Source of the DNA: Ignavibacteriota bacterium
Lineage (GTDB): Bacteria; Bacteroidota; Ignavibacteria; Ignavibacteriales; Melioribacteraceae
Direction: 5' to 3'
Assembly: GCA_002698995.1 (NCBI GenBank)
Contig: PAAX01000010.1
Span: 62,001 to 126,000, forward strand
Length of the DNA: 64,000 nt
Position 1 is the stretch's first letter, and every line of letters starts with the position of its first letter. The position numbers were made by a program, and so were the translations under genes. Under the pieces are notes generated by a model. The model was not told the DNA's origin. It ran no database searches and saw only the letters and a list, made by a program, of their open reading frames with translations. Positions 40,172 to 58,245 of this stretch are shown piece by piece.

Positions 40172-42340
40172 CTATTTCACCAGCATCATCTTACGAATCT
40201 GACTAAAACTTCCCGCCTGTATTTTATAGATATACATTCCGGTTGAAAGACCTGAAGCATCAAATGTTACTTCATAATTACCGGCAGATTTTTGTTCATT
40301 AACCAATGTAGCAACTTCGTTACCGAGAATATCATATACTTTTAAAGTAACATTAACATCGTCATTTCGAGAAGACGAAGTCGATGAGAAATCTTGAAGA
40401 TTTCTCCCTACAGTCGAAATGACAGATGGAATTGAATATTTTATTGTTGTTGTCGGATTAAAAGGATTTGGATAATTCTGTTCAAGACTAAAATTATGAA
40501 CTGTTATATCATCTTCTACATCAACAGTAGGAGATATAGTAAAAAATCCATCGCTGGTATCTCTTATACTAAAGTTTGATTCATCAAGAATCAGAATTAA
40601 ACATTCATCAGAATCAATATTTGGAGTATTCCATCTATAAACACCAAATTGAGATTCAGCAGATTGAGTAACAAAACCCCAGCTACTGCCGCCGTCAGTG
40701 CTGTATCCAATTCTAACCGATTGTACTTTTTGTGAATTCCATTTTATACTAAATCCAGCTTCTGATGTTATTGTTTCCCCGCCATTAGGAGAAATTATTG
40801 CAATACTTGGCTGAGAGTTAGGATGATAAATATCAAGACGATTAAGATTAAAATTGCCCGCTTCAATAAAAAGTCTTAAAGTATGAACTCCTGCTGAAAG
40901 ATTGAAATCAGAGGAAGTAACAGTTTCCCAAGTCTGCCATCCGCCGGTATTGGGAACATTGATGGTTGTTGAAAGATCATTACCGTCAAGCATTAACTTG
41001 AAAGCACCGGTTGTAACTTCTGAAGCAACTCTAGCTTCTAAATTGTAAATACCGGTTTCTTTTACATCAATTATATAATCAAGCCATTCTCCGGCTTCAG
41101 TCCAGCCAATATTAAAACCTTCTCCAAAATCTTCACATTGTTGAATGCCAACATCATCATTAACTCTGTATACTCCTCCCTCATTGATAGAAGTATTATC
41201 AAAATATGCTTCGCCATTTGCACCTTGATTAAAATTTTCGGCTTCAATTACACCTGGAATATATGATGGATGTCCGGTATATGGAGAGACAACACAATCA
41301 CTACCTGCTTTAACAACAACATTAAACGAAGTTCCTGTATAACCATCAGCGGTATATGCTTTAGCAGTAATATTATAGCATCCCGGATTAACATTTTCCC
41401 AAATCATTTCATAAGGCTCGGCATAAGCAATTCCAATTTTAGCTCCACCTTGGTAAAATTCAACCTTTTCAATTTCACCATCGTAATTGACTGAAGCACT
41501 AATCGGAATATCACTATACGGAGTAACTATTCCGTTATTAATTGGAGTTGTAATTGCAACATCAGGAATAACTGTAGCATCTTTATAAACTCTAACATAA
41601 TCAACATACATTTTTTGAGGAAATACTGTAGTTCCATCCGGGAATCCGGGCCAATTTCCACCAACTGCAACATTAAGAAGAAGAAATTGCTCTTTGTGCA
41701 ATTCACTTAATTCAGCAGGAGTAATATCAATTTGATGATATCGCAAATTATCTACGTACCATTCTATTTTAGTTGGTGTCCATACAACTGAAAAGGTATG
41801 AAAATCTGCATCAAATGTTGAACCGCTTAAAGTATAGCTTCCGCCAAATTTAGCATGAGTTCCATTATTAGACCAATGAACTGTACCATATGCAACATTT
41901 GGCTGATGACCAAGAAGTTCTAAAATATCTATTTCACCACAAGCCGGCCAGCCAACCGAATTAATATTTTCACCCAAAGTCCAAAATGCCGGCCATATCC
42001 CTTGTCCATATGGAGTTTTTATTCTTGCTTCAATTTTGCCATAAAGAAACGATTTCTTTCCTTTGGTTATTAATCTTGCAGAAGTATAACTTCTTCCGCC
42101 AAAATTTTCTTTTAGTGCTTGAATAACCAAATTTCCATTTTCAATATAAGCATTGGTATCTCTATCGGTATAAAACTGCAGCTCATTATTTCCCCATCCT
42201 CCGCCGCCAGTTTCTCTCGTCCAAACTGAAGGATCTAAAACATCTCCATTAAACTCATCCGACCAAAGCAATTGATATGTTTGAGATAATAATGGTGAGG
42301 TTAATAATAATAAAACAAATATTACGCTTAATCTTTTCAT
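40172..42340 (-). CDS. T9SS-exported GH16 beta-1,3-glucanase (laminarinase) with Ig-like and CBM6 domains
   Basis: A 722-residue modular enzyme: signal peptide (MKRLSVIFVLLLLTSPLLSQ), then GH16 (about 22-255) with the catalytic EIDILE at residues 136-141 (nucleophile E136, acid/base E141), preceded by WPAFW. An Ig-like domain of the glycanase linker type (about 258-345, VEFYQGGAKIG) and a CBM6 (about 360-480, IPGVIEAENF, NLNRLDIY) follow, then another beta domain (about 485-600) and the sorting domain (EQNYPNPFNPTTTIKY, terminal KMMLVK). The sequence fits GH16_3 endo-beta-1,3-glucanases. The sorting domain carries a 63-base palindromic insertion (see separate feature) adding 21 residues. Surface-exported first attack on laminarin-like glucan is likely. 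Confidence 0.94.
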   Translation of the reverse strand: MKRLSVIFVLLLLTSPLLSQTYQLLWSDEFNGDVLDPSVWTRETGGGGWGNNELQFYTDRDTNAYIENGNLVIQALKENFGGRSYTSARLITKGKKSFLYGKIEARIKTPYGQGIWPAFWTLGENINSVGWPACGEIDILELLGHQPNVAYGTVHWSNNGTHAKFGGSYTLSGSTFDADFHTFSVVWTPTKIEWYVDNLRYHQIDITPAELSELHKEQFLLLNVAVGGNWPGFPDGTTVFPQKMYVDYVRVYKDATVIPDVAITTPINNGIVTPYSDIPISASVNYDGEIEKVEFYQGGAKIGIAYAEPYEMIWENVNPGCYNITAKAYTADGYTGTSFNVVVKAGSDCVVSPYTGHPSYIPGVIEAENFNQGANGEAYFDNTSINEGGVYRVNDDVGIQQCEDFGEGFNIGWTEAGEWLDYIIDVKETGIYNLEARVASEVTTGAFKLMLDGNDLSTTINVPNTGGWQTWETVTSSDFNLSAGVHTLRLFIEAGNFNLNRLDIYHPNSQPSIAIISPNGGETITSEAGFSIKWNSQKVQSVRIGYSTDGGSSWGFVTQSAESQFGVYRWNTPNIDSDECLILILDESNFSIRDTSDGFFTISPTVDVEDDITVHNFSLEQNYPNPFNPTTTIKYSIPSVISTVGRNLQDFSSTSSSRNDDVNVTLKVYDILGNEVATLVNEQKSAGNYEVTFDASGLSTGMYIYKIQAGSFSQIRKMMLVK
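40361..40423. repeat. Palindromic repeat element (63 bp) inserted in frame in the GH16 sorting domain
   Basis: A 63-base unit with perfect ten-base terminal inverted repeats (GTCATTTCGA at 40361-40370, TCGAAATGAC at 40414-40423) and an inner near-palindrome around AGAAATCTTGAAGATTTCT. It resembles the GTCATTTCGA-ended intergenic repeats scattered through many Bacteroidota genomes (from general knowledge, not searched). Here it lies in coding sequence; 63 is a multiple of three and the element begins and ends on codon boundaries of the GH16 gene. Confidence 0.85.
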
Positions 42341-42350
42341 TGCTTCCTTT

Positions 42351-45149
42351 CTATTTGATTAGCATCATCTTTTTGATTTCTCTATAACTTCCGGCAGTCA
42401 GCTTGTAGAAATAGGTCCCGCTTGGAAATCTTTCAGCATTAAATTCAACATGATAATTTCCTTGAGGTTTATGTTCATTTACTAATTCTGCAATTTCATT
42501 CCCAAGAATATCATAAACTTTAAGTCTCACATACTCACTACTCGGTACTGTGTACTCAATACTAGTAGAAGGATTAAAAGGATTTGGGAAATTCTGTTCG
42601 AGTTTGAAACTTATGTTGTTGTCATTATTTTCATCAACATTAACTAATAGATCAAAAGAGAACCAGTTTATATTAAAGCCCCCTGTAACTGCCTTTAAGG
42701 TATATTCTGTTTCACCTTTTTGTAAATCAACTATTGTTGATACGGTACGCCAACTTTGCCAATCTCCGGTAACAGGGAGCAAAGTTGTTGACAAAACATT
42801 TGATCCTTCACTAAATTCTATTATACCGGCTTGAGACTGTGAAGCTATTCTATAATTTAACTGATAGGTTCCATGAGTTTGAACGTTTATTTTATAAGTC
42901 AACCAATCATCATTATCAATCCAACCGACATTAGTTCCTCCGCCAACATCAGAAGTATTTTCAGTTTGGATTCCACTCATTGCATAATAATCTTCTGCTT
43001 CTATCTTACCCGGAATTGTATGAATATCAGCTTTAGAGGAAGAATTATAAACTACTTTATTTTCGAACGGAATTAATAGTCCGCCATCAATAGATTTAAT
43101 AGAACCACTAACGTATTCAAGAGAAAGTTTTATATCAGTTTCCACATATTCGTCAAAAGTAATTAAGATTGAATTTGAGTCCAAACTCCCATCAACAGAT
43201 GTTGAATTAGAAATAAAATTGTTTTCACCTAATAAAGTAAAAGAAGAATTTGCAATTGAATTGAAATCAATTTGCTTATTAAAAGTAACCACAACTCTAT
43301 TTTTTTCTTTATCAACATTAGCGGAATAAAATAAAGGGGATGAACCAAATTGTGAATTACCAACAGAAATTAAACCAAATCCATATTCATAAAGAGGATC
43401 ATATTCAGCGTCACCAATATTAAGTGGAATTTGATCCATATATTTTGGCCATGAATGTGGTAAAAGTCCTTTAGGTTGAAAATCACCAAATAATATATCT
43501 GCTATTCCATCAGCTTCAGTTCCAGGAAGCCAAGCAGCAACAACAGCATCGCTGTATTGAAGAATAGGATTGATAATCATTGGTCTGCCTGAATACAAAA
43601 TTACAACTGTTTTTAACCCGGCTTCTTTTGCTTTTTTAACTAACTCAACATCTGAATCCGGAATAGTTAAATCTTCTTTAAAACCTTCGAATTCAGCATA
43701 AGGTTCTTCTGCAATAACTATAACAGCAATATCGGTATCAGATAAATCTTCACCATTTTCTGAAAAAATTACATTTGAATGATCGGTATTCTTTTTTACC
43801 GCTTCAAGAAGAGTTGTTCCTTCAGTTATATCACCGAGTCCACCTTGCCAATAGATTGTCCAGCCGCCGCATTGCAAACCTATATCATCTGCTCCTTTAC
43901 CAATCAAAGCAATCTTTTGATTTTCCTTTCTTAGAGGTAAAACATTATCTTTTTTTTGAAGTATAACAATGGATTCCCTTACACACTCTCTTGCTATATT
44001 CCTGTGTTCTTGAGATCCTACTAAATTGAGTAACGATCTATCTGTTAATGGATTTTCAAATAGACCTAACTCGAATTTAATTTTTAAAATTCTTTTAACA
44101 GCATCATCAATTCTTTCAATACTAACTTGATTTTCATTAACAAGTTCTTTTAGAAATGTAATAAACTCTACATATCTATCCGGAACCATAACCATATCAA
44201 CGCCGGCATTTATTGATTCTTTAATATCGTTTTTATAATCACCTGGAAGTTGGTCTATACCAGCCCAATCGGAAACAATAAAACCATCAAATCCTAACTC
44301 TTCTTTAAGGAGTGTTGTAAGTAAATAATAATGACCATGCAGTTTCTGACCATTCCAACTGCTGTAAGATGCCATTACTGTTCCAACGCCCGCTTCAATA
44401 GCTTTTAAATAACCCGGTAGATGAATAGCTCTTAATTCTTCTTCGCTTATTTCAGTATTTCCTTGGTCAATTCCTCCGGTTGTTCCGCCGTCACCAATAA
44501 AATGTTTTGCACATGCGGCAATTGTTTTCTGCTCATTTAAGCTGTCTCCTTGATATCCATAAATAGCAGCAACTGCGGCTAGTTCGGCTAATTCCGGAGT
44601 TTCACCAAAACCTTCATATGTTCTTCCCCATTTTTCATCGCGAGGAACAGCTATACAAGGTGCAAAAGTCCAATCTATTCCTGTTGCAGCGACTTCAACT
44701 GCAGTTACTTCTGCAGCATTCCTAATTAAATCCGGGTTTCTAGTAGCTCCTAATCCAATATTGTGTGGAAAGATAACCGCATCCTTAACATTATTATGAC
44801 CATGCACAGCATCAATTCCATAAATAAGCGGTATTTTTAATCGAGTGCTTAAAGCTTGATTCTGATATGAATCATACATATTAGCCCAAGATTCTGCGGT
44901 GTTTGGATTTGGTGAAGAACCGCCGCCACTTAACAATGATCCTAAGAAATAATCTCTAATATCATTTTCACTATTTAAGAAAGATCGTCCTGCTTGAGTC
45001 ATTTGCCCGACTTTTTCTTCGAGAGTCATTCTAGAAATTAAATCATCAACTCTTTCTTCAACAGTTGCATTTGGATCTAAATATATCTGTGCTTTTAATG
45101 ATACAATAAAGAGAAAGAATAAAAATATTTTTAAGGTGACAAATTTCAT
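42351..45149 (-). CDS. T9SS-exported GH3 beta-glucosidase/exo-glucanase with CBM6
   Basis: A 932-residue modular enzyme. Signal peptide to about residue 20; GH3 N domain with MTLEEKVGQMTQAG, IPLIYGIDAVHGHNN, KHFIGDGGTTGGIDQG and nucleophile D294 (FIVSDWAGID). The C domain (about 390-600) follows, resembling barley exoglucanase ExoI-type GH3 enzymes, which release glucose from beta-1,3/1,4-glucans. A beta domain (about 615-715, VVVTFNKQIDF), a CBM6 (about 715-840, IPGKIEAEDYY, GWIDNDDWL) and a T9SS sorting domain (EQNFPNPFNPSTSIEY, terminal KKMMLIK) complete it. The start codon follows the upstream GH16 stop with no spacer. Unlike the other three GH3 genes here, this one is surface-targeted. 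Confidence 0.93.
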   Translation of the reverse strand: MKFVTLKIFLFFLFIVSLKAQIYLDPNATVEERVDDLISRMTLEEKVGQMTQAGRSFLNSENDIRDYFLGSLLSGGGSSPNPNTAESWANMYDSYQNQALSTRLKIPLIYGIDAVHGHNNVKDAVIFPHNIGLGATRNPDLIRNAAEVTAVEVAATGIDWTFAPCIAVPRDEKWGRTYEGFGETPELAELAAVAAIYGYQGDSLNEQKTIAACAKHFIGDGGTTGGIDQGNTEISEEELRAIHLPGYLKAIEAGVGTVMASYSSWNGQKLHGHYYLLTTLLKEELGFDGFIVSDWAGIDQLPGDYKNDIKESINAGVDMVMVPDRYVEFITFLKELVNENQVSIERIDDAVKRILKIKFELGLFENPLTDRSLLNLVGSQEHRNIARECVRESIVILQKKDNVLPLRKENQKIALIGKGADDIGLQCGGWTIYWQGGLGDITEGTTLLEAVKKNTDHSNVIFSENGEDLSDTDIAVIVIAEEPYAEFEGFKEDLTIPDSDVELVKKAKEAGLKTVVILYSGRPMIINPILQYSDAVVAAWLPGTEADGIADILFGDFQPKGLLPHSWPKYMDQIPLNIGDAEYDPLYEYGFGLISVGNSQFGSSPLFYSANVDKEKNRVVVTFNKQIDFNSIANSSFTLLGENNFISNSTSVDGSLDSNSILITFDEYVETDIKLSLEYVSGSIKSIDGGLLIPFENKVVYNSSSKADIHTIPGKIEAEDYYAMSGIQTENTSDVGGGTNVGWIDNDDWLTYKINVQTHGTYQLNYRIASQSQAGIIEFSEGSNVLSTTLLPVTGDWQSWRTVSTIVDLQKGETEYTLKAVTGGFNINWFSFDLLVNVDENNDNNISFKLEQNFPNPFNPSTSIEYTVPSSEYVRLKVYDILGNEIAELVNEHKPQGNYHVEFNAERFPSGTYFYKLTAGSYREIKKMMLIK

Positions 45150-46001
45150 CTAATTAGTTTTTTCATAAACTTTTACATAATCAATAATCATTTCGCTTGG
45201 GAATACCGTATCCGGAGTAGGATTTCCAGGCCAGCTGCCGCCAACAGCAACATTAAGAATTAAGTGAAATCTTTTATCAAAAGGCCATGTCTTGTAGTTA
45301 CCTTGTTTATCATTTAGAAAAGTATAATAAACTTGATCATCAACCATAAAGTCAATTTTATCTTCATTCCAAGTAACCGAGTAAACATGGAAATTAACTG
45401 ATGCATCTTGAACAGCTATTTTACCGGTTTTCTGAGTTCCGATTTTATGGTTGTAAGATTCAGTGTGTACAGAACCATGTATATAGATTTCTTCATTTAC
45501 ATGCTCCATAATATCAATTTCACCAGAAGTTGGCCATCCACCGTACTCCCAATCTGTAGGAAGCATCCAAATTGCCGGCCATAGTCCTTGTCCAGCCGGA
45601 ATTATAGCTTTTACATCTATTCTTCCGTATTTCCAATCTCCTTTATTTGCGCTTCTTAATCTAGCTGATGTATAATAACGAGTTCCATCTTCTGCTGTAT
45701 ATTCTTCCCTTAATGCAGCAATATGCAGATTTCCATCTTTAACGTATGAATTTTCATTTCTTGCGGTATAATATTGGAGTTCATTATTGCCTCCTCCATT
45801 TCCGTTAACTTCATGTTCCCATTTAGTCTGATCGATACTAGAACCATCAAATTCATCACTCCAAACAAGAGTATATCCGGGTAATTCATTATTGTTATCT
45901 GTTGAATCAGAAGGATTAGTCCCCTTATCTTTTGAACAAGCAGATAATGAAATTGATAGAAGCATAAACACAATTAATACTAATTTTTTATGTAATCTCA
46001 T
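45150..46001 (-). CDS. GH16 beta-glucanase lipoprotein
   Basis: ATG at 46001 (MRLHKKLVL) is chosen, with GGTGAG just upstream that also contains the stop of the symporter gene; longer TTG/GTG starts overlap that gene. The 283-residue lipoprotein has lipobox LSAC (Cys22), a low-complexity Asn/Asp linker, then a complete GH16 domain: YTLVWSDEFDGSSID, YTSARLRS, GLWPAIWMLP and catalytic EIDIME at 161-166. It ends with LNVAVGGSWPG and VFPSEMIIDYVKVYEK. It should cleave beta-1,3 or mixed-linkage glucan. It is the lipid-anchored counterpart of the T9SS-exported GH16 at 40172-42340. Confidence 0.94.
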   Translation of the reverse strand: MRLHKKLVLIVFMLLSISLSACSKDKGTNPSDSTDNNNELPGYTLVWSDEFDGSSIDQTKWEHEVNGNGGGNNELQYYTARNENSYVKDGNLHIAALREEYTAEDGTRYYTSARLRSANKGDWKYGRIDVKAIIPAGQGLWPAIWMLPTDWEYGGWPTSGEIDIMEHVNEEIYIHGSVHTESYNHKIGTQKTGKIAVQDASVNFHVYSVTWNEDKIDFMVDDQVYYTFLNDKQGNYKTWPFDKRFHLILNVAVGGSWPGNPTPDTVFPSEMIIDYVKVYEKTN

Positions 46002-46006
46002 TTTTC

Positions 46007-47644
46007 TCACCAAAATATTGTATAAAGAACTGCTAAAATTAATACTATAACATAAGATGCTATGTTAAATGATTTATCGGTTGTAAATAACTTCTTGGTT
46101 ATCTTAAATCCTTTAGGATCATCATCATTTTCGTTTGTTGCTAAGCTTATCATTCCTGCAATTACAATTGTAATAATAAATGTATATAACATTTGATCCA
46201 TAAAAGGAAGACCTAAAGCATCAATCTTTAAGAGAAGTGCTACAGGAATTGACAAAACTGCTCCCCAGATTGCTCCTCTAGTTGTAACTTTTTTCCAGAA
46301 GAGACCCATCATAGAAACCGCAAGAACGCCAGGACTCACAATGCCGGTATATTCTTGAATATACTGAAAAGCCTGTGGAATGCTGCTTAATAAAGGAGCA
46401 ACAAAACATGCAACAATTAATGCTACAAATGCTGTAATTCTACCTGTACTTACAAGTTTACCTTCAACAGCAGTTTTATTAATGTATGGTTTATAAATAT
46501 CCATTGTAAATATTGTGGAAATTGAATTAAGCATTGAAGCAAGAGAAGAAACTATAGCAGCAGTTAAAGCCGCAACAACAACTCCTTTTAGTCCAACTGG
46601 TACAAAATTTCCAATCAACCAAGGATAAGCCTTATCATAATTAATTGAGCCGTCTGCTTTTGTAAATGCATCTTGGGCATTTGCTATAACTGCAGTTCCT
46701 TCCGGTTGAGCGTACATTACATAAGCAATAATTCCGGGAATAACTACAATTAAAGGAATTATTAATTTAAGAAAGGCAGCAAATGCAATTCCTTTTTGAG
46801 CTTCACGCAAAGATTTTGCAGCTAATGTTCTTTGAATGATGTATTGATTAAATCCCCAGTAATAAAGGTTTGCAATCCACATTCCACCTATTAAAATTGC
46901 AATTCCGGGAAGATTGTCAAACTCGGGATGCCCTTTTTCAAGTATCATATGAAATTTTTCACCGGCCGCATTATAGATATGAGAAAAACCGTTTATAATA
47001 CCACCGTCCGGGGTAACATTATTCAATGCAATTATGGTAGTTATAATACCTCCTAAAACAAGAAGAATTACTTGTATTATATCAGTCCATGCTACTGCTG
47101 CTAATCCTCCATACAGCGAATAAGCTGCAGCTATAAATGCTAATGCAATAATTCCGTAAATAATTAGACTTCCGTCGCCAACTCCCATTATTGTATCTAA
47201 TGCTTTGGCACCAAGAAATAAGACTGAAGTCAAATTGACAAAGACAAAAAGAAAAATCCAAAATATTGCTAAGATTGTCTTTAAAGTTGTGTTATATCTT
47301 TGTTCTATAAATTCGGGAATTGTGTAAAGTTTTTTTTCAATAAATATTGGAAGGAAAAACTTACCAACAATTATAAGAGTAAGAGCAGCCATCCATTCAT
47401 AAGATGCAATTGCTAAACCAATTGCAAAGCCTGAACCTGACATACCGATAATCTGCTCGGCTGAAATATTTGCAGCTATTAAAGATGCTCCGATTGCCCA
47501 CCAAGTTAAAGAGTTGCCAGCTAAGAAATAATCTTTTGAATCTTTCTTGTGTCCTTTCTTATCTCTTGAAACAAATAAACCTAATGCAACAATTCCTACT
47601 ATATAAAGCAGAAATATTGTTAAATCAATTGTTGAAAACCTCAT
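46007..47644 (-). CDS. Sodium/solute symporter (SSS family, SGLT-like sugar transporter)
   Basis: A 545-residue membrane protein with about 14 helices. Its text is close to the vSGLT group: GSLIAANISAEQIIGMSGSGFAIG-type segment near residue 53-75, FVNLTSVLFLGAKALD, SLYGGLAAVAWTDIIQ (SSS signature) and SSLASMLNSISTIFTMDIYK. Such proteins import glucose, galactose or related sugars with Na+. With a glucan-degrading operon around it, uptake of glucose or a short oligosaccharide is the likely job. It lies 16 bases after the 1150-residue phosphorylase-like gene and 5 bases before the GH16 lipoprotein gene. Confidence 0.93.
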   Translation of the reverse strand: MRFSTIDLTIFLLYIVGIVALGLFVSRDKKGHKKDSKDYFLAGNSLTWWAIGASLIAANISAEQIIGMSGSGFAIGLAIASYEWMAALTLIIVGKFFLPIFIEKKLYTIPEFIEQRYNTTLKTILAIFWIFLFVFVNLTSVLFLGAKALDTIMGVGDGSLIIYGIIALAFIAAAYSLYGGLAAVAWTDIIQVILLVLGGIITTIIALNNVTPDGGIINGFSHIYNAAGEKFHMILEKGHPEFDNLPGIAILIGGMWIANLYYWGFNQYIIQRTLAAKSLREAQKGIAFAAFLKLIIPLIVVIPGIIAYVMYAQPEGTAVIANAQDAFTKADGSINYDKAYPWLIGNFVPVGLKGVVVAALTAAIVSSLASMLNSISTIFTMDIYKPYINKTAVEGKLVSTGRITAFVALIVACFVAPLLSSIPQAFQYIQEYTGIVSPGVLAVSMMGLFWKKVTTRGAIWGAVLSIPVALLLKIDALGLPFMDQMLYTFIITIVIAGMISLATNENDDDPKGFKITKKLFTTDKSFNIASYVIVLILAVLYTIFW

Positions 47645-47660
47645 GGTTACCTCAATGTTC

Positions 47661-50600
47661 TTAAGAATGGTAATTAAAATAAACTTTTATACTTTTTACA
47701 TTGTCATTCTTCCAAAAAATGTCACTGCTCAATTCTTTGGATATTTTCATTTTATTTATCTCTAACGTTTCTTCTTTAGTATTAATAATAATTTTATTCT
47801 TATCAGATTTATGATAAACAACCGGCACCTGGCAGTATGTAAAGGCAATAGAACCAATCGGCAATTCAATTGAGTCTTTTATTCCGTTAACATTATAGAA
47901 ATTGAATGTTTCCGGTACCGAAGTGAATTCTATTTCATTTAATAAATTATTTTGGAAATTAATTTCTCCGTTAATTACAATAATTCCAAGTTCTCCAAAT
48001 CTTGAAATAACATCTTCCTTTACCTGACCGGTCATCCCAGGCTGCTGCACACCGGTAAAACTTGGAGTATGAGAATATGGATCAGTTGGAAAAGCACCAT
48101 AATCAGCCGGTGATTTATGAACACCGATTCCCTCTTTAATTTCATAATAAAAACTGTTTATTTTTTTGAGATTAGATTCATCATCTTTATTAAGTGATGA
48201 TATAAATGATTCTTGTACAGCTAAAGCAAGCTTTGAAACCATGTGCCAGTATATTGAACCCAATCCTTCATATTTGTAGAACGTACCCGATCTTCCAGTA
48301 AATGATTTATGATTGAATATATTTTCATATATATCTAGCACTTTTTTAACTTCATTCTCAATAATATTAATGCCTTCTTGATCAAAAGCCTTTTTCAGCT
48401 TCTCTTTTAGAACTGCTGAATTTTTTATCTCGCCATTAAAATGATAATTACCAAGCACATCTTTGCTGATAACATCGGAATTATTTTTATTAATTAATTC
48501 CATTAGAAGTTTAGTAGATTCAACATCAGAAGCGGGAATTATGTTTTTATCCTTAAACTTGGTTAAAACTCTATTTGGATAGAGTATATAGCTATTTTGA
48601 TCTTCTCTGTAGAGACTACTTTGGCGCAAGGATTTAAGTAGTTCCAAAGTCTGATCAGAATTTAAGTAACCTGAACTAAGAACAGCAACCTGTCCTTCAA
48701 GCATTTCATAGAGATAAGTAATTTGGATTTCATCATCTTTAACAGACATTAAATTATATGAATGATATAACCCGTCTTCTCTTTTATTCGCATCTATTGT
48801 ATGTTCAATATATTTTTGAACAACTGAAAGAAAATCAATCAATTCATTAATTGAGATATTTTCTTTATTAAATGATAATCCCTCTGAATAAATCTTTTGT
48901 CTAAACTCTGAGCCGGCTTTTCCTAGTCCATCCAAAATTAATTTTCTTTGTTTATCACTTAATTGATTCTTTAGAAGATCAACATTTGATTGAAATACTT
49001 TATTTAGCTGATCAAAGAAATCTTTAACTTCTTCAGATATTTTAGTTCCCTTTACCTCATCAGAGTTAAGTATCTTTATCATAAAATCAACATACCTTCT
49101 CATGTAATAAAGAGTAACCATCGATACACCGTAACCAACAAGTGCGTTGTTAGCATCATTCCACTCCGGACGCTGTGTGTTCATCCATATTCCCCCGCCG
49201 GGAATAAAATTACTTAACTTTGAAAGCAACGGAACGATTAATTTTTCAAGCAGATTAACTTGATAAGGAATGTTTTCTTTAGTAAGTATATTTTTTCCAT
49301 CTGCTCCAAGCTTTTCGCATAGATTTTGAATTTGCTGATCCAGTTTGAAGTCATAATCTATAGTATCATGAGGATCATGTAAAAGATTTTCATAATTTTT
49401 AATTCTATATGGAACATTTAGATATGTAAAAGTTTCTTTGTTCAGTATAGATAAAATCTTTTCAGAGTTGTGGTTGACTGAAAACTCTAACAGTTTAAGC
49501 AAATAAATAATTTGATGATCACCCCAATAACCAATATTTGCCCAAGGTTGATCGGGTTCAGGAGCTTCCCATTCAAATCCATCTCTAGTAACCCTATAAG
49601 GATTATATCCATCAACTGTGGAGCCATTTAGAAATTTAGTTATCATTGATTCAATATAGCAAGGATGAGATTCGGCAAGAGCTTCCCAATTCTGGAAAAT
49701 ATCTCTCCAGTTTCCTTGGTAATTAAGAATCTTATTATTTTTTTTATCTTTTAATTCTATTGAGAATCTATTCCACGGTCTGCTTGGATCTCCATGTCTT
49801 CTGCTGAATGTAAGAGGGAGATATTCATTAGTAATTCTGTTTAACTGATTATCATTAATCTCACTAACCAAGAAAAACAAATCATTTAGAAATACTTTTT
49901 CTTCAAGAGTATATATTTTTTCTTTGTACTTATCATAAAGAGTACGATTAATTGTTTTAATAAACTCTAAAAAATCATTTCTGTCAATTTCATAAGAGTT
50001 ATCAAAAATTCCGCCACGCATTATATTAAAGAGTGTATTTGCAAAGTGTCTTGATGTAACCAACTTATCACTTGATAACTGCAGTCCATCCGCTGTTCCA
50101 ACTAGTTTAATTAAAGTCTCTGTACCTTCTTGAACATTCTTCAAAACATCATCTTTCAAGGATGAATTGCTTTTTATTTCATTACAAAGAAAAGCTAAGT
50201 CGGATGAATCTTGATTAATTTCTGCTGTAAAAATCCAATCTTTTTTCTCACCTGAATTTAGTTTTATTTCCGAACTAATAAAGTAAGCACCGCGATTTCC
50301 TTTTATATCATCTTCATTTATTAAATCAAATCCTTTTCTGAAGTTATCCAACTGGATAGAAGAAAGAAGATAATTACCAGCTTTAAGTCCATAACTCCAA
50401 ACTGTTGCTGCTTTTAATGATTCACTTGGTTCCGCTTTGTCAGAAGGAATTGAACTCAATGAAAAGATTCCAATACCAAACTCTTTTATAAGTTCACTCC
50501 TTTTATAACCATCGGCAAGAGTACTATATTCATTTTGAAATTTTTGATCAATTCCAAATGGAAGAATATTTTGAATTCCGTCAAGTACTTCTATTTCTTT

Positions 50601-51113
50601 AATTGAACTATTATTATTGGTTAATACGGATTTCTTAATAAACCCGTATTTCTCACTATTAAGCCAACTGTATGAAAAGGTTAAACCGAGATCCAAATTA
50701 ATCTCTTCAAAGATTAATTTATTGCCGGGAATATTTTTATAAATGTTACGTTTGATTTGATAAGCATTCAAATATCTATCAGAAAAGGGTTCCCATAAAT
50801 GGAATCCTTTATCGGACTTAATTCTAAAAATAGTTTTTGAGCCGGTATAATCAGCAGAATCATGAATCTTATCATCGGTGTAATATGGGAAAAGTGCATT
50901 ATCCGGATTTCTTCTGCCGGCAGTAAGACTTCCTCTGCTGGAGACAAACATCCAATGATCAGAATTACTTACAATGCTCATAAAGAAAGGATTCATCTTA
51001 TCGTAATTTGTTATCTTGTAGAAATCCTCGCCATCTATTTTTACATAAGTACCTGATGATTCTTCCTTATTTAAATTTATCTTTTGATTATTTATAAAAA
51101 TATCTTTCACCAT
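47661..51113 (-). CDS. Large cytosolic glycoside phosphorylase-like protein (clan GH-Q type, possible beta-1,3-glucan phosphorylase)
   Basis: A 1150-residue protein without signal peptide or membrane helix, the only cytosolic candidate carbohydrase in the operon. The N-terminal region (SSRGSLTAGRRNPDNALF at residues 58-75, then SKTIFRIKSDKGFHLWEPFS) and the middle beta-rich domain (KSVLTNNNSSIKEIEVLDG) look like the beta-sandwich of GH94-like phosphorylases. A helical barrel seems to span about 350-950, with NYQGNWRDIFQNWEALA (464-480), GYWGDHQIIYLLKLLE (528-543) and WMNTQRPEWNDANNALVG (643-660); the WND triplet recalls the catalytic DWND of GH94. The length of about 1150 suits GH149/GH161 beta-1,3-glucan phosphorylases rather than GH94 (about 800). 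The assignment is from memory of these families, not from a search. Start ATG behind AGAGAAGAG. Confidence 0.5.
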   Translation of the reverse strand: MVKDIFINNQKINLNKEESSGTYVKIDGEDFYKITNYDKMNPFFMSIVSNSDHWMFVSSRGSLTAGRRNPDNALFPYYTDDKIHDSADYTGSKTIFRIKSDKGFHLWEPFSDRYLNAYQIKRNIYKNIPGNKLIFEEINLDLGLTFSYSWLNSEKYGFIKKSVLTNNNSSIKEIEVLDGIQNILPFGIDQKFQNEYSTLADGYKRSELIKEFGIGIFSLSSIPSDKAEPSESLKAATVWSYGLKAGNYLLSSIQLDNFRKGFDLINEDDIKGNRGAYFISSEIKLNSGEKKDWIFTAEINQDSSDLAFLCNEIKSNSSLKDDVLKNVQEGTETLIKLVGTADGLQLSSDKLVTSRHFANTLFNIMRGGIFDNSYEIDRNDFLEFIKTINRTLYDKYKEKIYTLEEKVFLNDLFFLVSEINDNQLNRITNEYLPLTFSRRHGDPSRPWNRFSIELKDKKNNKILNYQGNWRDIFQNWEALAESHPCYIESMITKFLNGSTVDGYNPYRVTRDGFEWEAPEPDQPWANIGYWGDHQIIYLLKLLEFSVNHNSEKILSILNKETFTYLNVPYRIKNYENLLHDPHDTIDYDFKLDQQIQNLCEKLGADGKNILTKENIPYQVNLLEKLIVPLLSKLSNFIPGGGIWMNTQRPEWNDANNALVGYGVSMVTLYYMRRYVDFMIKILNSDEVKGTKISEEVKDFFDQLNKVFQSNVDLLKNQLSDKQRKLILDGLGKAGSEFRQKIYSEGLSFNKENISINELIDFLSVVQKYIEHTIDANKREDGLYHSYNLMSVKDDEIQITYLYEMLEGQVAVLSSGYLNSDQTLELLKSLRQSSLYREDQNSYILYPNRVLTKFKDKNIIPASDVESTKLLMELINKNNSDVISKDVLGNYHFNGEIKNSAVLKEKLKKAFDQEGINIIENEVKKVLDIYENIFNHKSFTGRSGTFYKYEGLGSIYWHMVSKLALAVQESFISSLNKDDESNLKKINSFYYEIKEGIGVHKSPADYGAFPTDPYSHTPSFTGVQQPGMTGQVKEDVISRFGELGIIVINGEINFQNNLLNEIEFTSVPETFNFYNVNGIKDSIELPIGSIAFTYCQVPVVYHKSDKNKIIINTKEETLEINKMKISKELSSDIFWKNDNVKSIKVYFNYHS

Positions 51114-51139: not shown

Positions 51140-52201
51140 TTACTTCATTAATTCCGGATATAATTTTTGCATAACTTTTTTAGGAGTTCTGTCAACTTTG
51201 AATAAACCCCAATATTTCTCTGCACCAATAGGATTTGATGGATCGCCTTTCCATGGCTCATCAAATGCTTCAAAGAAAAACAGAGTATAATTCATTTCAT
51301 CAGCCCAATTCATAATTTCATTGTAGTATCTTTCTTGTTTTTCCTCACTTGCTCGTTCACCAAATTCAGATGCTGTAGTTGCCCATCCGGCTTCCGTTAT
51401 TACAATTCTTGCTTCAGGAAGTGAATCTTTAACTTCTTGAATATTATCGATAGAATATGAAAGTCCGGTTTCAATATCCTGTCCTTCCCAAACGGGATAG
51501 ACATGAATTGATATGAAATCAACTTCTGCAGACAATTCCTTTCCATCCAAAGCCCACCATTTGAAATTATCTGCAACAGTTACTTCCTGTTCAACTTCGT
51601 CTTTAACTTTTCTTACGTATTCAATAATCTTTTCCACGGTAACCATATGGTCATTCCATTCAACAAGAGCTTCATTACCTACTGCAACGGCAACAATGAT
51701 ATCATTATATTCATTTGCCAATCTTATTCCACTTTCAATTTCTTTCATATTATCAATTATATTTTGATCTAAAATCTCTTGTGGAATTGGTTCGGTTAAC
51801 CAAGGGCATCCTTCATGATTACTGATTTCAGCTTTAAGCCAAATGCCAAGCATCATTTTTATATTCAGATTATTTTCTTTTATTACTCTTAGGATGGTCT
51901 GAGTATTTTCGCCCGAATCATAAACTCTTATTAAATTGAAGTTAGAATTCTTTGATAAAATTTGAAGATCTTCAAGTGTTTCTTCGTAAGAAGGATTTAC
52001 AGCACCATCACCTCTATCGGGATGCTGTCCTTCTCTAAAACCGGAATAGCAAATAGCTCTTGTAACTCCGATTAATAAATCATCTTTTGACTGTTTTAAT
52101 CTATCACCTTCATTATTCATTACGGTTGAATTAACTGATATTGATGTAATTAATATCATTATAAAAATTATAATCGTTTTTTTTCTATTTAGTAGACTCA
52201 T
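51140..52201 (-). CDS. GH17 beta-1,3-glucanase-like protein
   Basis: A 353-residue protein with an N-terminal hydrophobic segment (IIIFIMILITSISVNS, about 10-25) acting as signal or anchor. The body is a GH17-like TIM barrel: LIGVTRAICYSGFREGQHP, NLIRVYDSG, the acid/base E177 in VAVGNEALVEWN, ISIHVYPVW and the nucleophile E270 in VITEAGWAT. Bacterial GH17 enzymes act on beta-1,3-glucan as endo- or exo-glucanases or as transglycosylases, so hydrolysis versus transfer is open. It ends 26 bases before the phosphorylase-like gene. No lipobox and no T9SS domain, so a periplasmic location is likely. Confidence 0.9.
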   Translation of the reverse strand: MSLLNRKKTIIIFIMILITSISVNSTVMNNEGDRLKQSKDDLLIGVTRAICYSGFREGQHPDRGDGAVNPSYEETLEDLQILSKNSNFNLIRVYDSGENTQTILRVIKENNLNIKMMLGIWLKAEISNHEGCPWLTEPIPQEILDQNIIDNMKEIESGIRLANEYNDIIVAVAVGNEALVEWNDHMVTVEKIIEYVRKVKDEVEQEVTVADNFKWWALDGKELSAEVDFISIHVYPVWEGQDIETGLSYSIDNIQEVKDSLPEARIVITEAGWATTASEFGERASEEKQERYYNEIMNWADEMNYTLFFFEAFDEPWKGDPSNPIGAEKYWGLFKVDRTPKKVMQKLYPELMK

Positions 52202-52215
52202 ATTTCTTCTTTTAT

Positions 52216-54591
52216 TTATGGATTATATGTTATTGAACTGCAAGCTTTTACAAATTTCATAACTCCTTCATGATCAACTTCACCATTAGTCATGTAAGGA
52301 AGTTTAATCACCGGATGATCAATAAAGAATTCATTAAATACTGCTTCATCCATTGATTTACCTTCCGGTACAAAACTGCTTATCCAATTAGGAATCAGCT
52401 TTTTCAATAATTCTCTTGTATCCGGGTTTTCCCAATATTCTCTAATAAATGTATATTCATTATAATTAAGTGAGATTTGCTGAGTAGATTTTAAGGTTAC
52501 TTTTTCAGAAAGTCTGATATCTCTTGAAGAAGAGCCGACTAAAATTTCAAACTCGCCACTTTCTGCTATCCACGTTTCTCTATTTGAATCATAATATGAA
52601 AAATCTCTTGAACTTAGATTGAAAGTAACTTCTCTGGTTTCATTCGGATTTAATTCTACTTTAACAAATTTTTTGAGCTCTTTTTCCGGTCTTACTAATG
52701 AGCTATTAAAATCTTTTACATACAACTGAATTACTTCTTTTCCTTTATAGTCACCGCTGTTTCTAATTTTTACTTTTACTTCCAATCCTTCTTTATCATT
52801 AAATTGAGAATTTGAAACTGATAAATCTGAGTAAGCAAAAGTGGTGTAAGATAAACCATGCCCGAATGGAAAGAGAGGTTTAATATTTTTTTTGTCGTAA
52901 TATCTATAACCGACAAACAATCTTTCACCGTAAAGAACATTTCCTTCTTCACCGGGAAAATTCAAGAATGCAGGAGTATCTTCTAATCTTACTGGAAAAG
53001 TTTCGGCAAGTTTTCCGGAAGGATTTACATTACCAAATAAAACATCAACAACTCCGGCTGCCCCAGCCTGACCACCAAGCCAAGTTTCTAAAATTGTATG
53101 AACTCTATTTGCCCAAGGCATTGCAACTGCGCTGCCATTGGTTAAAACTACAACCGTTCTTTCATTTATCAATGATAATTCTTCAATTAATTTATTATGA
53201 GACTGAGGCATATCTATATGTTTTCTATCAATACCTTCAGATTCATAGTGAAGTGGTAATCCGGCAAAAATTAAAACAACATCAGAATTTGCTGCTAAAT
53301 GTTTTGCATCATCAATTAGTGAAAAATCATTATCATCTTTTAAATTATATCCTTGAGAATATTCAATTTCAAAAGAACCACCAAACTCATTTTTTATAAG
53401 ATCAAGAGCATTATCAAGTTTTGTAGGTTTTACTTCTGAGCTTCCGTTGCCTTGAAATCGAGGATTAACAGCAAATTCACCAATCACGGCAATTCTTTGA
53501 AACTTATCTTTATTTATCGGTAAAGTTTTTGTGTCATTTTTTAATAGAGTTATCGATTCAGCAGAGACTTTTCCGGCAAATTCATGATGAGCATCAATAT
53601 CAAATTCTGCTTTTTCTTTTTGCAGTGATTTAGCTTTGAAAACAATTTTAAGAATTTCTTTGACTAAGGCATCTAATTTAGTTTCATCAAGAGTTCCGTT
53701 CTTAACTGCTTCAACAATAAGCTTATCATTATATTTATGAACTCCAGGCATTTCAATATGAAGACCGGCTTCAATTCCTTTAACACGATCAACAACCGCA
53801 AACCAGTCAGAAATTACAATACCTTCAAAACCCCATTCTTCTTTTAATGTTTTGGTAAGAAGTTCAAATGATTGAGTTCCATATTCTTCTTGAACCCTAT
53901 TGTAACATGCCATTATTGTCCAAGGCTGAGCTTTTTTGACAGCTATTTCAAATGGAGTTAGATAAATCTCATTTAACGTTCTTGAGTCGACATCAGAATT
54001 AGCATGCATTCTTCTTGTTTCTACATTATTAGCTGTAAAATGCTTTAATGAAGTTCCTACTCCTCTGCTTTGAACGCCATTAATGAATGCAGCCCCAATT
54101 TCACCGGCTAAAACCGGATCTTCAGAAAAGTATTCAAAATTTCTTCCCCCTAATACTGATCTTTTAATATTTACGCCGGGACCGAGCAGCACATTTACAC
54201 CTAAAGCTTGACATTCATCTCCTAATGCTTCACCAACTTTATGTATCAAGTCAACATCCCAAGTAGCAGCAAGAGCTGAAGCAGTTGGGAAACAAGTAGC
54301 AGGGTGCTGATCACCATATCCAGGTTTATTTGTAGCTGGCGCGCGTCTTACACCATGAGGTCCATCTGCAACCCAAATCCATGGAATGTCCAATCTTTCA
54401 ATTGATTGGGTGCTCCAGTCATCTCTGCCTGAACAAAGTGATGCTTTTTCTTCTAATGTCATTTTCGTTATTAGCAAATCAATTTTAGATTCAATATCAT
54501 TCATATTCTGCGCTTTCAATCCGAAGTTCATAATTAAAAATAGTAAGAGTGCTAAATTTGTTATTTTCATTTTTATATAAGTTTTATTCAT
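52216..54591 (-). CDS. GH3 beta-glucosidase with fibronectin III-like C-terminus
   Basis: A 791-residue enzyme of the BglB type, exported (signal region up to about residue 28). It has the GH3 N domain with SLCSGRDDW, WVADGPHGVRR, GPGVNIKRSVLGGRNFEYF, KHFTANN and nucleophile D262 (GIVISDWFAV). Its C domain has the acid/base region YESEGIDRKHI, and GLSYTTFAYSDL leads to the FnIII-like domain (about 590-700, EVIQLYVKD). An extra 70 residues (about 720-791, WENPDTRELLKKLIPNWISS) follow the FnIII-like domain. M1 is supported by AGGAAG just before ATG; an internal Met8 would give a cleaner signal peptide. The short ORF upstream overlaps its start by 8 bases. Confidence 0.92.
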   Translation of the reverse strand: MNKTYIKMKITNLALLLFLIMNFGLKAQNMNDIESKIDLLITKMTLEEKASLCSGRDDWSTQSIERLDIPWIWVADGPHGVRRAPATNKPGYGDQHPATCFPTASALAATWDVDLIHKVGEALGDECQALGVNVLLGPGVNIKRSVLGGRNFEYFSEDPVLAGEIGAAFINGVQSRGVGTSLKHFTANNVETRRMHANSDVDSRTLNEIYLTPFEIAVKKAQPWTIMACYNRVQEEYGTQSFELLTKTLKEEWGFEGIVISDWFAVVDRVKGIEAGLHIEMPGVHKYNDKLIVEAVKNGTLDETKLDALVKEILKIVFKAKSLQKEKAEFDIDAHHEFAGKVSAESITLLKNDTKTLPINKDKFQRIAVIGEFAVNPRFQGNGSSEVKPTKLDNALDLIKNEFGGSFEIEYSQGYNLKDDNDFSLIDDAKHLAANSDVVLIFAGLPLHYESEGIDRKHIDMPQSHNKLIEELSLINERTVVVLTNGSAVAMPWANRVHTILETWLGGQAGAAGVVDVLFGNVNPSGKLAETFPVRLEDTPAFLNFPGEEGNVLYGERLFVGYRYYDKKNIKPLFPFGHGLSYTTFAYSDLSVSNSQFNDKEGLEVKVKIRNSGDYKGKEVIQLYVKDFNSSLVRPEKELKKFVKVELNPNETREVTFNLSSRDFSYYDSNRETWIAESGEFEILVGSSSRDIRLSEKVTLKSTQQISLNYNEYTFIREYWENPDTRELLKKLIPNWISSFVPEGKSMDEAVFNEFFIDHPVIKLPYMTNGEVDHEGVMKFVKACSSITYNP

Positions 54592-54703
54592 AACTTCCTG
54601 AATTTGGTATATTGGTTTTTACATCAGTATAAATCCCATGCATAAAATGTTTAGCTTTTAGTCCAACCATTAAAGGAAGAATTGCTATTTCCAAATTATG
54701 CAT
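54584..54703 (-). CDS. Possible 39-residue protein overlapping the GPH symporter and GH3 genes
   Basis: A 40-codon ORF (MHNLEIAILPLM... to ...NIPNSGSYE) starts with ATG at 54703 inside the last codons of the symporter gene, with AGGAAG seven bases upstream, and stops at 54584 inside the first codons of the GH3 gene. Eight-base overlaps at both ends fill an otherwise 104-base gap that would be the longest in the operon. No domain or motif is recognised; LEIAILPLMVG is mildly hydrophobic. It may be a real translationally coupled small protein or only an open spacer. Confidence 0.35.
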   Translation of the reverse strand: MHNLEIAILPLMVGLKAKHFMHGIYTDVKTNIPNSGSYE

Positions 54704-56045
54704 TACCAATCTTCCTTCTAGCAGATAACTCAATTTGGATTTTCTCCATAGTTGATTCAGTAAGATCATAAAAGAATAAAAGCCCGGCAGAAAGAATCAT
54801 TAAAATTCCGGGAATTATACTCAGCATTAATTTAATTCCAAGGATAGTGTCAGATGATTGAACTTCATTCGGTACATAATTAAATATAGCCAGCAGCCAT
54901 CCAGTAATTGCACCACCTACACCCCAGCCGAACTTCTGTCCAAAAGTTGCAGCAGAAAAAACTATTCCGGTAGCTCTTCTTCCAAACTTCCATTCCGAAT
55001 AATCAGCGGTATCAGCATACATTGCCCAAAGAATTGGAACACCGGGACCATTGAAAAATCCTACTAAAGCAGAAATGATATACGCGTAAATATATTCATC
55101 AGGTGAAGGAATAAATAAAGCAAGAACACCAATTCCACTTAGAATATTACTTGCTATATATGTATTTCTTTTACCGAATTTTTTAGTCAGCGGTTTTGAA
55201 AGAGGAATACCTATTATTAAACCAATCGTTCCAAGTACTGCAAACATTGAGAATAAACTTTCATCACCTACATAATATTGGAAATAATATAATCCGACTG
55301 CAATTCTTAGCGACAAGAAAATAAATGTAACGAGACCCATTACAAATAAAATCACCCATGGTTTGTTACTAAATAAATCCTTTAAATCATCTTTAAGAGG
55401 AGTTGCTTCTGTCTGTACCGGTTCAATTCTTTCTTTTGTAGAATAGAAAGTGACATAAAACATTCCGATTGCAATAATTGCGAAAAGTCCCATAGTCATT
55501 TGATAACCGGCGGCTTTATTTCCGGCACCAAAAAACGCAATTAAAGGAAGGGTTAATGCCTGCACCATTAATGCAGCACTTTGCCCTAAAACAAATCGAT
55601 ATGAATTCAGACTGGTTCTTTCAACAGAATCAGCTGTCATAACACCTGATAAAGCACCATAAGGAATATTATTAGCAGTATAAATCATCATCATGCCGAT
55701 ATATGTGATATAAGCATAAATGATTTTTCCTTGAACACTGAAATCGGGAGTTGTAAACATTAGAACCGCCATAATTCCAAAAGGAATTGCCGTCCATTTA
55801 ACCCATGGTCTAAACTTACCGTATTTGGATTTAGTTCTATCGGCAACTGCTCCCATCATAGGATCATTAATTGCATCCCAAATTCTTGATACTAAAAATA
55901 ATGTTCCAACAGCAGCAGCTGGAATTCCAAATATATCAGTGTAGTAGTACATTAAAAATATCATAACTGTTTGGAATACTATGTTTGCTGCAAAGTCCCC
56001 TAAACCGTAACCGACTTTCTCTTTTATTGATAATTTCTGTTCCAT
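54696..56045 (-). CDS. GPH-family (MelB-like) sugar:cation symporter
   Basis: A 449-residue major-facilitator protein with 12 helices. The N-terminus KEKVGYGLGDFAANIVFQ and loop WDAINDPMMGAVADRTKSKYGKFRPW (the D-P-x-x-G...D-R motif with the RPW ending) are diagnostic of the glycoside-pentoside-hexuronide:cation symporter family (TC 2.A.2). It should import mono- or disaccharides, here probably products of beta-glucan breakdown, with Na+ or H+. It follows a GH3 gene by 22 bases and precedes the short ORF and another GH3. A second, unrelated symporter (SSS) lies in the same operon. Confidence 0.93.
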   Translation of the reverse strand: MEQKLSIKEKVGYGLGDFAANIVFQTVMIFLMYYYTDIFGIPAAAVGTLFLVSRIWDAINDPMMGAVADRTKSKYGKFRPWVKWTAIPFGIMAVLMFTTPDFSVQGKIIYAYITYIGMMMIYTANNIPYGALSGVMTADSVERTSLNSYRFVLGQSAALMVQALTLPLIAFFGAGNKAAGYQMTMGLFAIIAIGMFYVTFYSTKERIEPVQTEATPLKDDLKDLFSNKPWVILFVMGLVTFIFLSLRIAVGLYYFQYYVGDESLFSMFAVLGTIGLIIGIPLSKPLTKKFGKRNTYIASNILSGIGVLALFIPSPDEYIYAYIISALVGFFNGPGVPILWAMYADTADYSEWKFGRRATGIVFSAATFGQKFGWGVGGAITGWLLAIFNYVPNEVQSSDTILGIKLMLSIIPGILMILSAGLLFFYDLTESTMEKIQIELSARRKIGNA

Positions 56046-56067: not shown

Positions 56068-58245
56068 TTAATCTGTAAGTATGAACTCTTTTTTCTGCTT
56101 TATATCTTTTGATGATGTTCCGATTAAAGCAGTAAACTTTCCATGCTCAGCTTTGAACTTTCTTGTTTCTATATCATAAAAAGAAAGCTGTTTTGTATTA
56201 ATTCTGAATTCAACTTTTTTGCTTTCTCCAGGGGCAAGACTTACTTTCTCAAATCCCTTAAGTTCTTTATTCGGTCTTTCTACAGAAGATTCAACATCAT
56301 TTATATACAGCTGAACAACTTCTTTTCCGGCAGATTTACCGGTATTCTTAACATTCACTTCCAAAACTATTTCTTCATCAATTTGCAATTTATCATTGCT
56401 CAGTTTTAAATCGCTAATTTCAAATTCAGTGTAAGATAATCCATGTCCAAATGGGAAAAGAGGTTCTACATTGAAACTGTCGTAATAACGGTATCCGACA
56501 AATACACCTTCCTTGTATTCAACTTCTAATCCATCACCAGGAATATCACCAAACTTAAAAGCCGGGGTATCTTCAAGCTTTTTAGGGAATGTGAATGGAA
56601 GTTTGCCAGATGGATTAACATCACCGAATAAAATATCTGCGAAAACATTTCCTGCTTCCGAACCTGAATACCAGCCTTGAATTACAGCAGGTGTATTGTT
56701 TATCCACTCATTCATTTCAACTGGCTGACCACTTATTAAAACTACTATCACGTTTTTATTAACTTCAAGAATACCTTTTATTAAAGCATCCTGCTCATAA
56801 GGTAAAGTCATTTCAGTTCTGTCAACACTCTCCATATCAAAATCATGATTAAGTCCCATAAACATAATTACATAGTCAGAATTCTTAGCTGTTTCAACTG
56901 CTTCATCTCTTAATCTTTTTACGTAATCTGCATCAGATTTACCGGTATCAATTCTACCATCAGACCAGTTAAATAGAGTAGTAGATTTATAACCTTGAGC
57001 ATAATTGATATTTACAGAACCACCCAATTTATTCTTTAATCCTTCAAGAGGTGTAATTTCGTATTTTGCTTTAATAGCAGAACTACCTCCTCCATAAGCA
57101 TGTTTGCGGTCTGCATTTTCTCCAATAACTGCAATTGATTTAATTTGCGTTTTATTTAGCGGAAGAATTGAGTTTTCATTTTTTAATAACACAACCGCTT
57201 CTTCAGCAATTTTTCTTGCAGATTCAAAATTTCTATCAGATACGAATTCACCAGTTGATCGGTCTTTGTTAAAGACGTTTGTACGATACATTACAGTTAA
57301 TATTCTTCTTACTTTATCGTTGATTATTTCTTCAGCAACTTCTCCATTTTCAACTGCTTCCTTAAGGGCATCGGCAAAATAATAGTCATTATAAGAACTT
57401 TTATTAGTCCCCATTTCCAAATCCAAACCGGCTTTAGCAGCTTTAACAGTTGAATGAGTGCCATCCCAATCAGAAATAACAACGCCTTCAAATCCCCATT
57501 CATTTTTCAAAATATCTGTAAGTAGATATTCGTTTTCACTGCACCAATCACCACGGAATTTATTGTAAGCTGACATAACGGTTAATGATTTACCTTCAAT
57601 AAAAGCAGCTTCAAATCCGGGTAAGTAAATTTCTCTAAGTGTTCTTTCATCAACTTCTACATTTACTCTAAATCTTTCGTACTCTTGATTATTCAAAGCA
57701 AAATGTTTGACACAAGCAGCAACATCCTGGCTTTGAACTCCTTGAATGTAAGGAACAGCTAACTTTGAAATAAGTAATGGATCTTCAGACATATACTCAA
57801 AATTTCTACCGCAAAGTGGAGTTCTATGAATATTTATTCCTGGTCCAAGAATAACATCTTTTCCCCTGCCTCTTGCTTCTCTTCCTAAAACCTGACCAAA
57901 TTCCAATGCCAAATCGGGATTCCAAGTTGCGGCTAATGCAGTTCCAACCGGAAGATAAGTTGCAAAATCATTATCCAATCCTGCAGGATCCCAATCATCT
58001 CTATTTATTTCTTCCCTAACTCCATGCGGTCCATCAGATAATTTCCATTCGGGAATATTCAATCTCTCAACGCCTGCACTTGTAAATTTAGAATTAGCAT
58101 GTATCATTGATATTTTTTCATCAAGAGTCATTTGATTAATCAGATTATTAATAAATTTTGTTTCATCTGATGTCTGTGCATTTATTTGTGTCATTTTCAT
58201 AAATATGAATAGAGTTAGTAATATTGTTAGCTTTTTATTTTTCAT
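56068..58245 (-). CDS. GH3 beta-glucosidase with fibronectin III-like C-terminus
   Basis: A 725-residue exported GH3 enzyme of the BglB type: signal peptide (TILLTLFIFMKMTQINAQ), WKLSDGPHGVREE, ILGPGINIHRTPLCGRNFEYMS, KHFALNNQEYE and nucleophile D259 (GVVISDWDGTHS). The acid/base region DFDMESVDRTEM, C domain and FnIII-like domain (from about 600, EIVLEVNVKNTG, KEVVQLYIND) end without a sorting domain. It is likely periplasmic and hydrolyses terminal glucose from beta-linked oligoglucosides. It is close in type to the GH3 at 52216-54591 but lacks that protein's extra C-terminal helices. It lies 7 bases after the next GH3 gene upstream. Confidence 0.93.
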   Translation of the reverse strand: MKNKKLTILLTLFIFMKMTQINAQTSDETKFINNLINQMTLDEKISMIHANSKFTSAGVERLNIPEWKLSDGPHGVREEINRDDWDPAGLDNDFATYLPVGTALAATWNPDLALEFGQVLGREARGRGKDVILGPGINIHRTPLCGRNFEYMSEDPLLISKLAVPYIQGVQSQDVAACVKHFALNNQEYERFRVNVEVDERTLREIYLPGFEAAFIEGKSLTVMSAYNKFRGDWCSENEYLLTDILKNEWGFEGVVISDWDGTHSTVKAAKAGLDLEMGTNKSSYNDYYFADALKEAVENGEVAEEIINDKVRRILTVMYRTNVFNKDRSTGEFVSDRNFESARKIAEEAVVLLKNENSILPLNKTQIKSIAVIGENADRKHAYGGGSSAIKAKYEITPLEGLKNKLGGSVNINYAQGYKSTTLFNWSDGRIDTGKSDADYVKRLRDEAVETAKNSDYVIMFMGLNHDFDMESVDRTEMTLPYEQDALIKGILEVNKNVIVVLISGQPVEMNEWINNTPAVIQGWYSGSEAGNVFADILFGDVNPSGKLPFTFPKKLEDTPAFKFGDIPGDGLEVEYKEGVFVGYRYYDSFNVEPLFPFGHGLSYTEFEISDLKLSNDKLQIDEEIVLEVNVKNTGKSAGKEVVQLYINDVESSVERPNKELKGFEKVSLAPGESKKVEFRINTKQLSFYDIETRKFKAEHGKFTALIGTSSKDIKQKKEFILTD

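Follow-up and report, generated by a model that had tools for sequence, protein, structure and literature searches.

A predicted cytosolic beta-1,3-glucan phosphorylase of family GH149 in a probable laminarin-type utilisation cluster of an Ignavibacteriota bacterium

The gene of a 1150-residue phosphorylase of family GH149 is located on the minus strand at positions 47661..51113 of the window (the whole stretch of 64,000 nucleotides that was analysed), in a run of tightly packed genes that share its orientation and include exported GH3 enzymes and a GH16-CBM6 protein with T9SS sorting tail. Adjacent upstream, a GH17-like exported glucanase with a hydrophobic N-terminus is encoded (51140..52201), separated by a 26-base gap from the GH149 gene and by a 14-base gap from the gene before it; its match to PF00332 is weak (24.6 bits, E 2.3e-5) and stays below the curated cut-off of 28.2 bits, and an orthologue of 68-76% identity adjoins the GH149 gene in three other loci (L001, L082 and L085). 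Adjacent downstream, after a 16-base gap, follows a sodium/solute symporter of the SSS family (46007..47644; PF00474, E 5e-69; TIGR00813, 371.9 bits), so that the position between GH17 and SSS symporter given in the original prediction was recovered with Pfam. The remaining upstream part of the run comprises three exported GH3 enzymes (52216..54591, 56068..58245 and 58253..60490; Pfam, each with a hydrophobic N-terminus) and a GPH/MFS_2 sugar:cation symporter, a probable oligosaccharide importer (54696..56045; PF13347, 370.8 bits; TIGR00792, 455 bits). Downstream of the SSS gene are located a GH16 lipoprotein, a putative endo-beta-1,3-glucanase (45150..46013; PF00722, E 3.7e-21; lipobox-like N-terminus LLSISLSAC), and two proteins that carry T9SS sorting tails according to Pfam, a GH3-CBM6 (42351..45149) and the aforementioned GH16-CBM6 (40172..42340); all of these genes are on the minus strand. 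Beyond the latter, a DUF418 gene and then a pair of GH5 genes (35957-38919) belong to the same run.

The glucan cluster may extend beyond the window end on contig C15 (L091, 2727-15923): upstream of the cluster are encoded a TonB-dependent receptor, a CBM9 protein and a GH5-CBM6 protein that both carry T9SS tails, a further SSF symporter, a GDSL lipase, and a histidine kinase together with a sigma-54 response regulator. PF07980, the sole SusD model used, matched nowhere in the whole genome, despite its many T9SS-tailed CAZymes.

The phosphorylase gene is one unbroken, ATG-started open reading frame, in exact agreement with the predicted position and length (the strand had been left unstated), whereas the plus strand across the same interval is crowded with stops. 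The sequence blocks quoted in that prediction are present in the protein: GNWRDIFQNWE starts at G467, GYWGDHQIIYLLKLLE at G528, and WMNTQRPEWNDANN corresponds to residues 643-656. The protein has no hydrophobic N-terminus: within its first 45 residues the maximal Kyte-Doolittle mean over 11 residues is -0.12, compared with 2.1-3.4 for every GH3, GH5, GH16 and GH17 gene of the cluster. Judged by this N-terminal hydropathy rather than by SignalP, it is the only glycoside-hydrolase-like product of the cluster devoid of an export signal, as had been proposed.

The family question is settled. The NCBIfam model NF058639.1, an equivalog named "1,3-beta-D-glucan phosphorylase, GH149 family", matched residues 16-1146 with 1681.9 bits (cut-off 1150) and was covered from position 2 to 1133 of its 1134 positions; because this match spans the full length, a chance open reading frame is excluded. 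In the PDB sequence search the only strong relative was the GH149 enzyme Pro_7066 (6HQ6/6HQ8; 1271.6 bits, about 50% identity), followed by two GH161 sequences at about 59-60 bits. The protein is 47-62% identical to 87 homologues, and in the tree it nests among GH149 homologues. Membership in the GH149 beta-1,3-glucan/oligoglucan phosphorylases of clan GH-Q is thus established, and the proposed likeness to GH149 rather than GH94 was borne out. The reading as a GH161 or GH94 phosphorylase, or as a separate new GH-Q family, could draw on the common clan fold (Z 34.6 for GH161 and 26.8 for GH94 laminaribiose phosphorylase, see below), but it is rendered virtually impossible by the full-length equivalog match above cut-off, by 1271 bits to Pro_7066 versus about 59 bits to GH161, and by the identities to Pro_7066 and to the 87 homologues. 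The suggestion of a separate branch or new family therefore had to be abandoned in view of the NF058639 and 6HQ6 scores, the homologue identities and the nesting in the tree; GH161 and GH94 were likewise ruled out by the PDB bit scores and, for GH94, by Pfam. Indeed, no Pfam model matched the 1150-residue protein even at E 1, that of GH94 (PF17167) included, and the lack of any Pfam family for this protein could mislead an annotation resting on Pfam only. A second GH149 copy was not found in the genome. Its only GH94 phosphorylase-type protein (801 residues; contig C9, L090 8541-10946) has a mannosylglycerate-hydrolase-like gene on one side and a T9SS-tailed NAGPA-domain gene on the other.

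The fold was assessed with an AlphaFold2 model built from 20 own-locus sequences (mean pLDDT 81.5, pTM 0.82). Using VIA-align 2, residues 18-1150 of the model were superposed on 6HQ6 as the first-ranking structure (Z 49.6, rmsd 2.7, 1092 aligned residues, 49% identity), followed by GH161 9GY9 (Z 34.6, 18% identity in the structural alignment), whereas GH94 entries reached Z values of about 27 and below; Foldseek agreed with TM-scores of 0.92-0.93 to 6HQ6/6HQ8. Compared with 6HQ6, the model displays the GH149 architecture of beta-sandwich, helical linker, (alpha/alpha)6 barrel and C-terminal jelly roll, and Dom 1 and Dom 2 of the GH149 barrel fall inside the aligned range; the (alpha/alpha)6 barrel expected from the sequence blocks is thus reproduced at the level of the predicted structure. 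The catalytic loops (434-472, 648-656 and 939-952) are of low confidence in the model, with a pLDDT under 50 for residues 648-656, and the assignment of active-site residues rests for this reason on the sequence alignment.

For Pro_7066, the published active-site residues are R470, D471, W651-N652-D653, E951 and the phosphate-site H959, with D653 of the WND motif as the catalytic aspartate (PMC6771811); with an offset of 19 residues between chain and publication numbering, the expected letter was found at each published position read. The aligned equivalents in the window protein are the donor-site residues R470 and D471, the WND motif at 651-653, E949 (E951 in Pro_7066) and H957 (H959), and all seven are invariant across 88 sequences. 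Whether D653 or E650 occupies the general-acid position had been left to be decided: D653 corresponds to the published catalytic D653 and never varies, whereas E650 is replaced by Asp in 1 of the 88 sequences. On the basis of this alignment D653 is assigned as the general acid and E650 is ruled out.

Homologues number in the hundreds and come for the most part from beta-glucan loci of Bacteroidota in which GH17 and MFS_2 genes are neighbours; a scan with one genome per species gave at least 586 stretches encoding relatives. Of the 89 loci that contain a complete GH149 gene, two being those of the window itself, a GH17 homologue was present near GH149 in 70 and an MFS_2 homologue in 62, GH3 in 21, GH16 in 16 and an SSS homologue in only 7; these counts refer to the fetched DNA and are minima, since some loci are short. 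The tight order GH17-GH149-SSS is common to the window, L001, L082 and L085, whose GH149 proteins (identical in L001 and L085) are grouped together in the tree at an SH-aLRT support of 99%; the window GH17 has its closer relatives in this small clade, the copies from Flavobacteriia being more distant. The adjacent SSS symporter is the only local peculiarity, and one that is common to a small clade of close relatives, whereas the MFS_2/GPH transporter is the commoner GH149 neighbour. In the taxonomic family of the window organism, GH149 was detected in 14 of 79 genomes (13 over cut-off).

That GH149 genes of Bacteroidetes lie in PULs and CAZyme clusters has been known from the literature since 2018 (PMC5827456), and a 2026 paper describes the same for Muricauda (PMC13188888). 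For Ignavibacteria, a search of the literature on GH149-type phosphorylases yielded background papers only. The Bacteroidetes laminarin PULs (Formosa, Muricauda/Allomuricauda) resemble the window locus in the clustering of GH149 with GH16, GH17, GH3 and an MFS transporter; the window locus differs by the SSS symporter beside GH149 and by the lack of a SusD gene. With Pro_7066, a beta-1,3-oligosaccharide phosphorylase, the window protein shares a full-length sequence match, the fold, all published active-site residues and the missing export signal, but differs in about half of its residues and in being known from sequence, whereas Pro_7066 has been characterised biochemically. GH161 (9GY9, 9QQK) agrees in clan fold and reaction type and differs by the low score and identity given above; the GH94 enzyme PsLBP (6GGY, 6GH3) agrees in clan fold and catalytic aspartate, but comprises about 900 residues and is 12-13% identical in the structural alignment. 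The description of GH149 dates from 2018 and that of its structure from 2019, so that the enzyme class itself is not new: the window protein adds a sequence to a known family of solved structure, and its kind of locus has already been described.

We assign a probability of roughly 95% to the reading that the protein is a cytosolic GH149 beta-1,3-glucan/oligoglucan phosphorylase serving a laminarin-type beta-1,3-glucan utilisation cluster. For its activity, substrate length, direction in vivo, transporter and mutase, we infer the following route. The exported GH16, GH17 and GH3 enzymes would shorten beta-1,3-glucan outside the inner membrane, and short beta-1,3-gluco-oligosaccharides would be imported by cation symporters, most plausibly by the GPH/MFS_2 and possibly by the SSS protein. 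The phosphorylase would then release the glucose at the non-reducing end in an inverting phosphorolysis, in which D653 would protonate the glycosidic oxygen and phosphate attack C1; the products would be alpha-glucose-1-phosphate and a chain shorter by that residue. Glucose-1-phosphate would be channelled into glycolysis by a hexose-phosphate mutase, with one ATP saved per glucose; the candidates in the genome are three PF02878 proteins, all of them GlmM/ManB-like, none of which exceeded the cut-off of a phosphoglucomutase equivalog. By analogy with the characterised relatives, phosphorolysis of imported laminari-oligosaccharides to glucose-1-phosphate is the likely role; the annotated beta-glucan metabolism of this organism would thereby gain a phosphorolytic step that saves energy. 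Pro_7066 breaks laminaritriose down as far as glucose (PMC6484121), and the substrates of the window enzyme are therefore probably beta-1,3-gluco-oligosaccharides from the disaccharide up. On the other hand, much of the oligosaccharide may already be split into glucose by the several exported GH3 enzymes prior to import, and the SSS protein could just as well take up the glucose thus freed.

That the enzyme would act mainly synthetically in vivo and use glucose-1-phosphate to build beta-1,3-glucan, possibly the case in Euglena, appears improbable: the reversibility of the reaction and the oligomer synthesis by characterised GH149 enzymes in vitro (PMC5827456) speak for it, but the gene is surrounded by symporters, GH3 enzymes and exported beta-glucanases, a degradative setting that is repeated in most homologous loci. 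Similarly slight is the chance of a shifted linkage or chain-length preference, e.g. for mixed-linkage beta-glucan oligomers. The nearby GH5 genes would fit substrates with mixed or beta-1,4 linkages; the active-site residues, however, are identical to those of beta-1,3-specific homologues, and the characterised GH149 enzymes EgP1 and Pro_7066 are beta-1,3-specific (PMC5827456, PMC6771811). Within the preferred reading of laminari-oligosaccharide phosphorolysis, a SusD-less layout may be considered tentatively, in which T9SS-secreted and exported glucanases would feed GH149 via symporters of the GPH and SSS types; the SSS gene would have been added to GH17-GH149 a single time in this lineage, and its product would import laminari-oligosaccharides. 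We regard this as rather doubtful.

A complete GH149 gene (1692 bits; L003, 10001-13399) in a MAG labelled Candidatus Brockarchaeota groups with an Acidobacteria-labelled one; HdrA- and sulfhydrogenase-like genes on the same 93-kb contig are compatible with an archaeal contig, but are no proof against mis-binning. The GH149 gene of a MAG labelled Rhodobacteraceae (L022, 10001-13441) is nested among Flavobacteriaceae near Formosa, and its contig is probably mis-binned.
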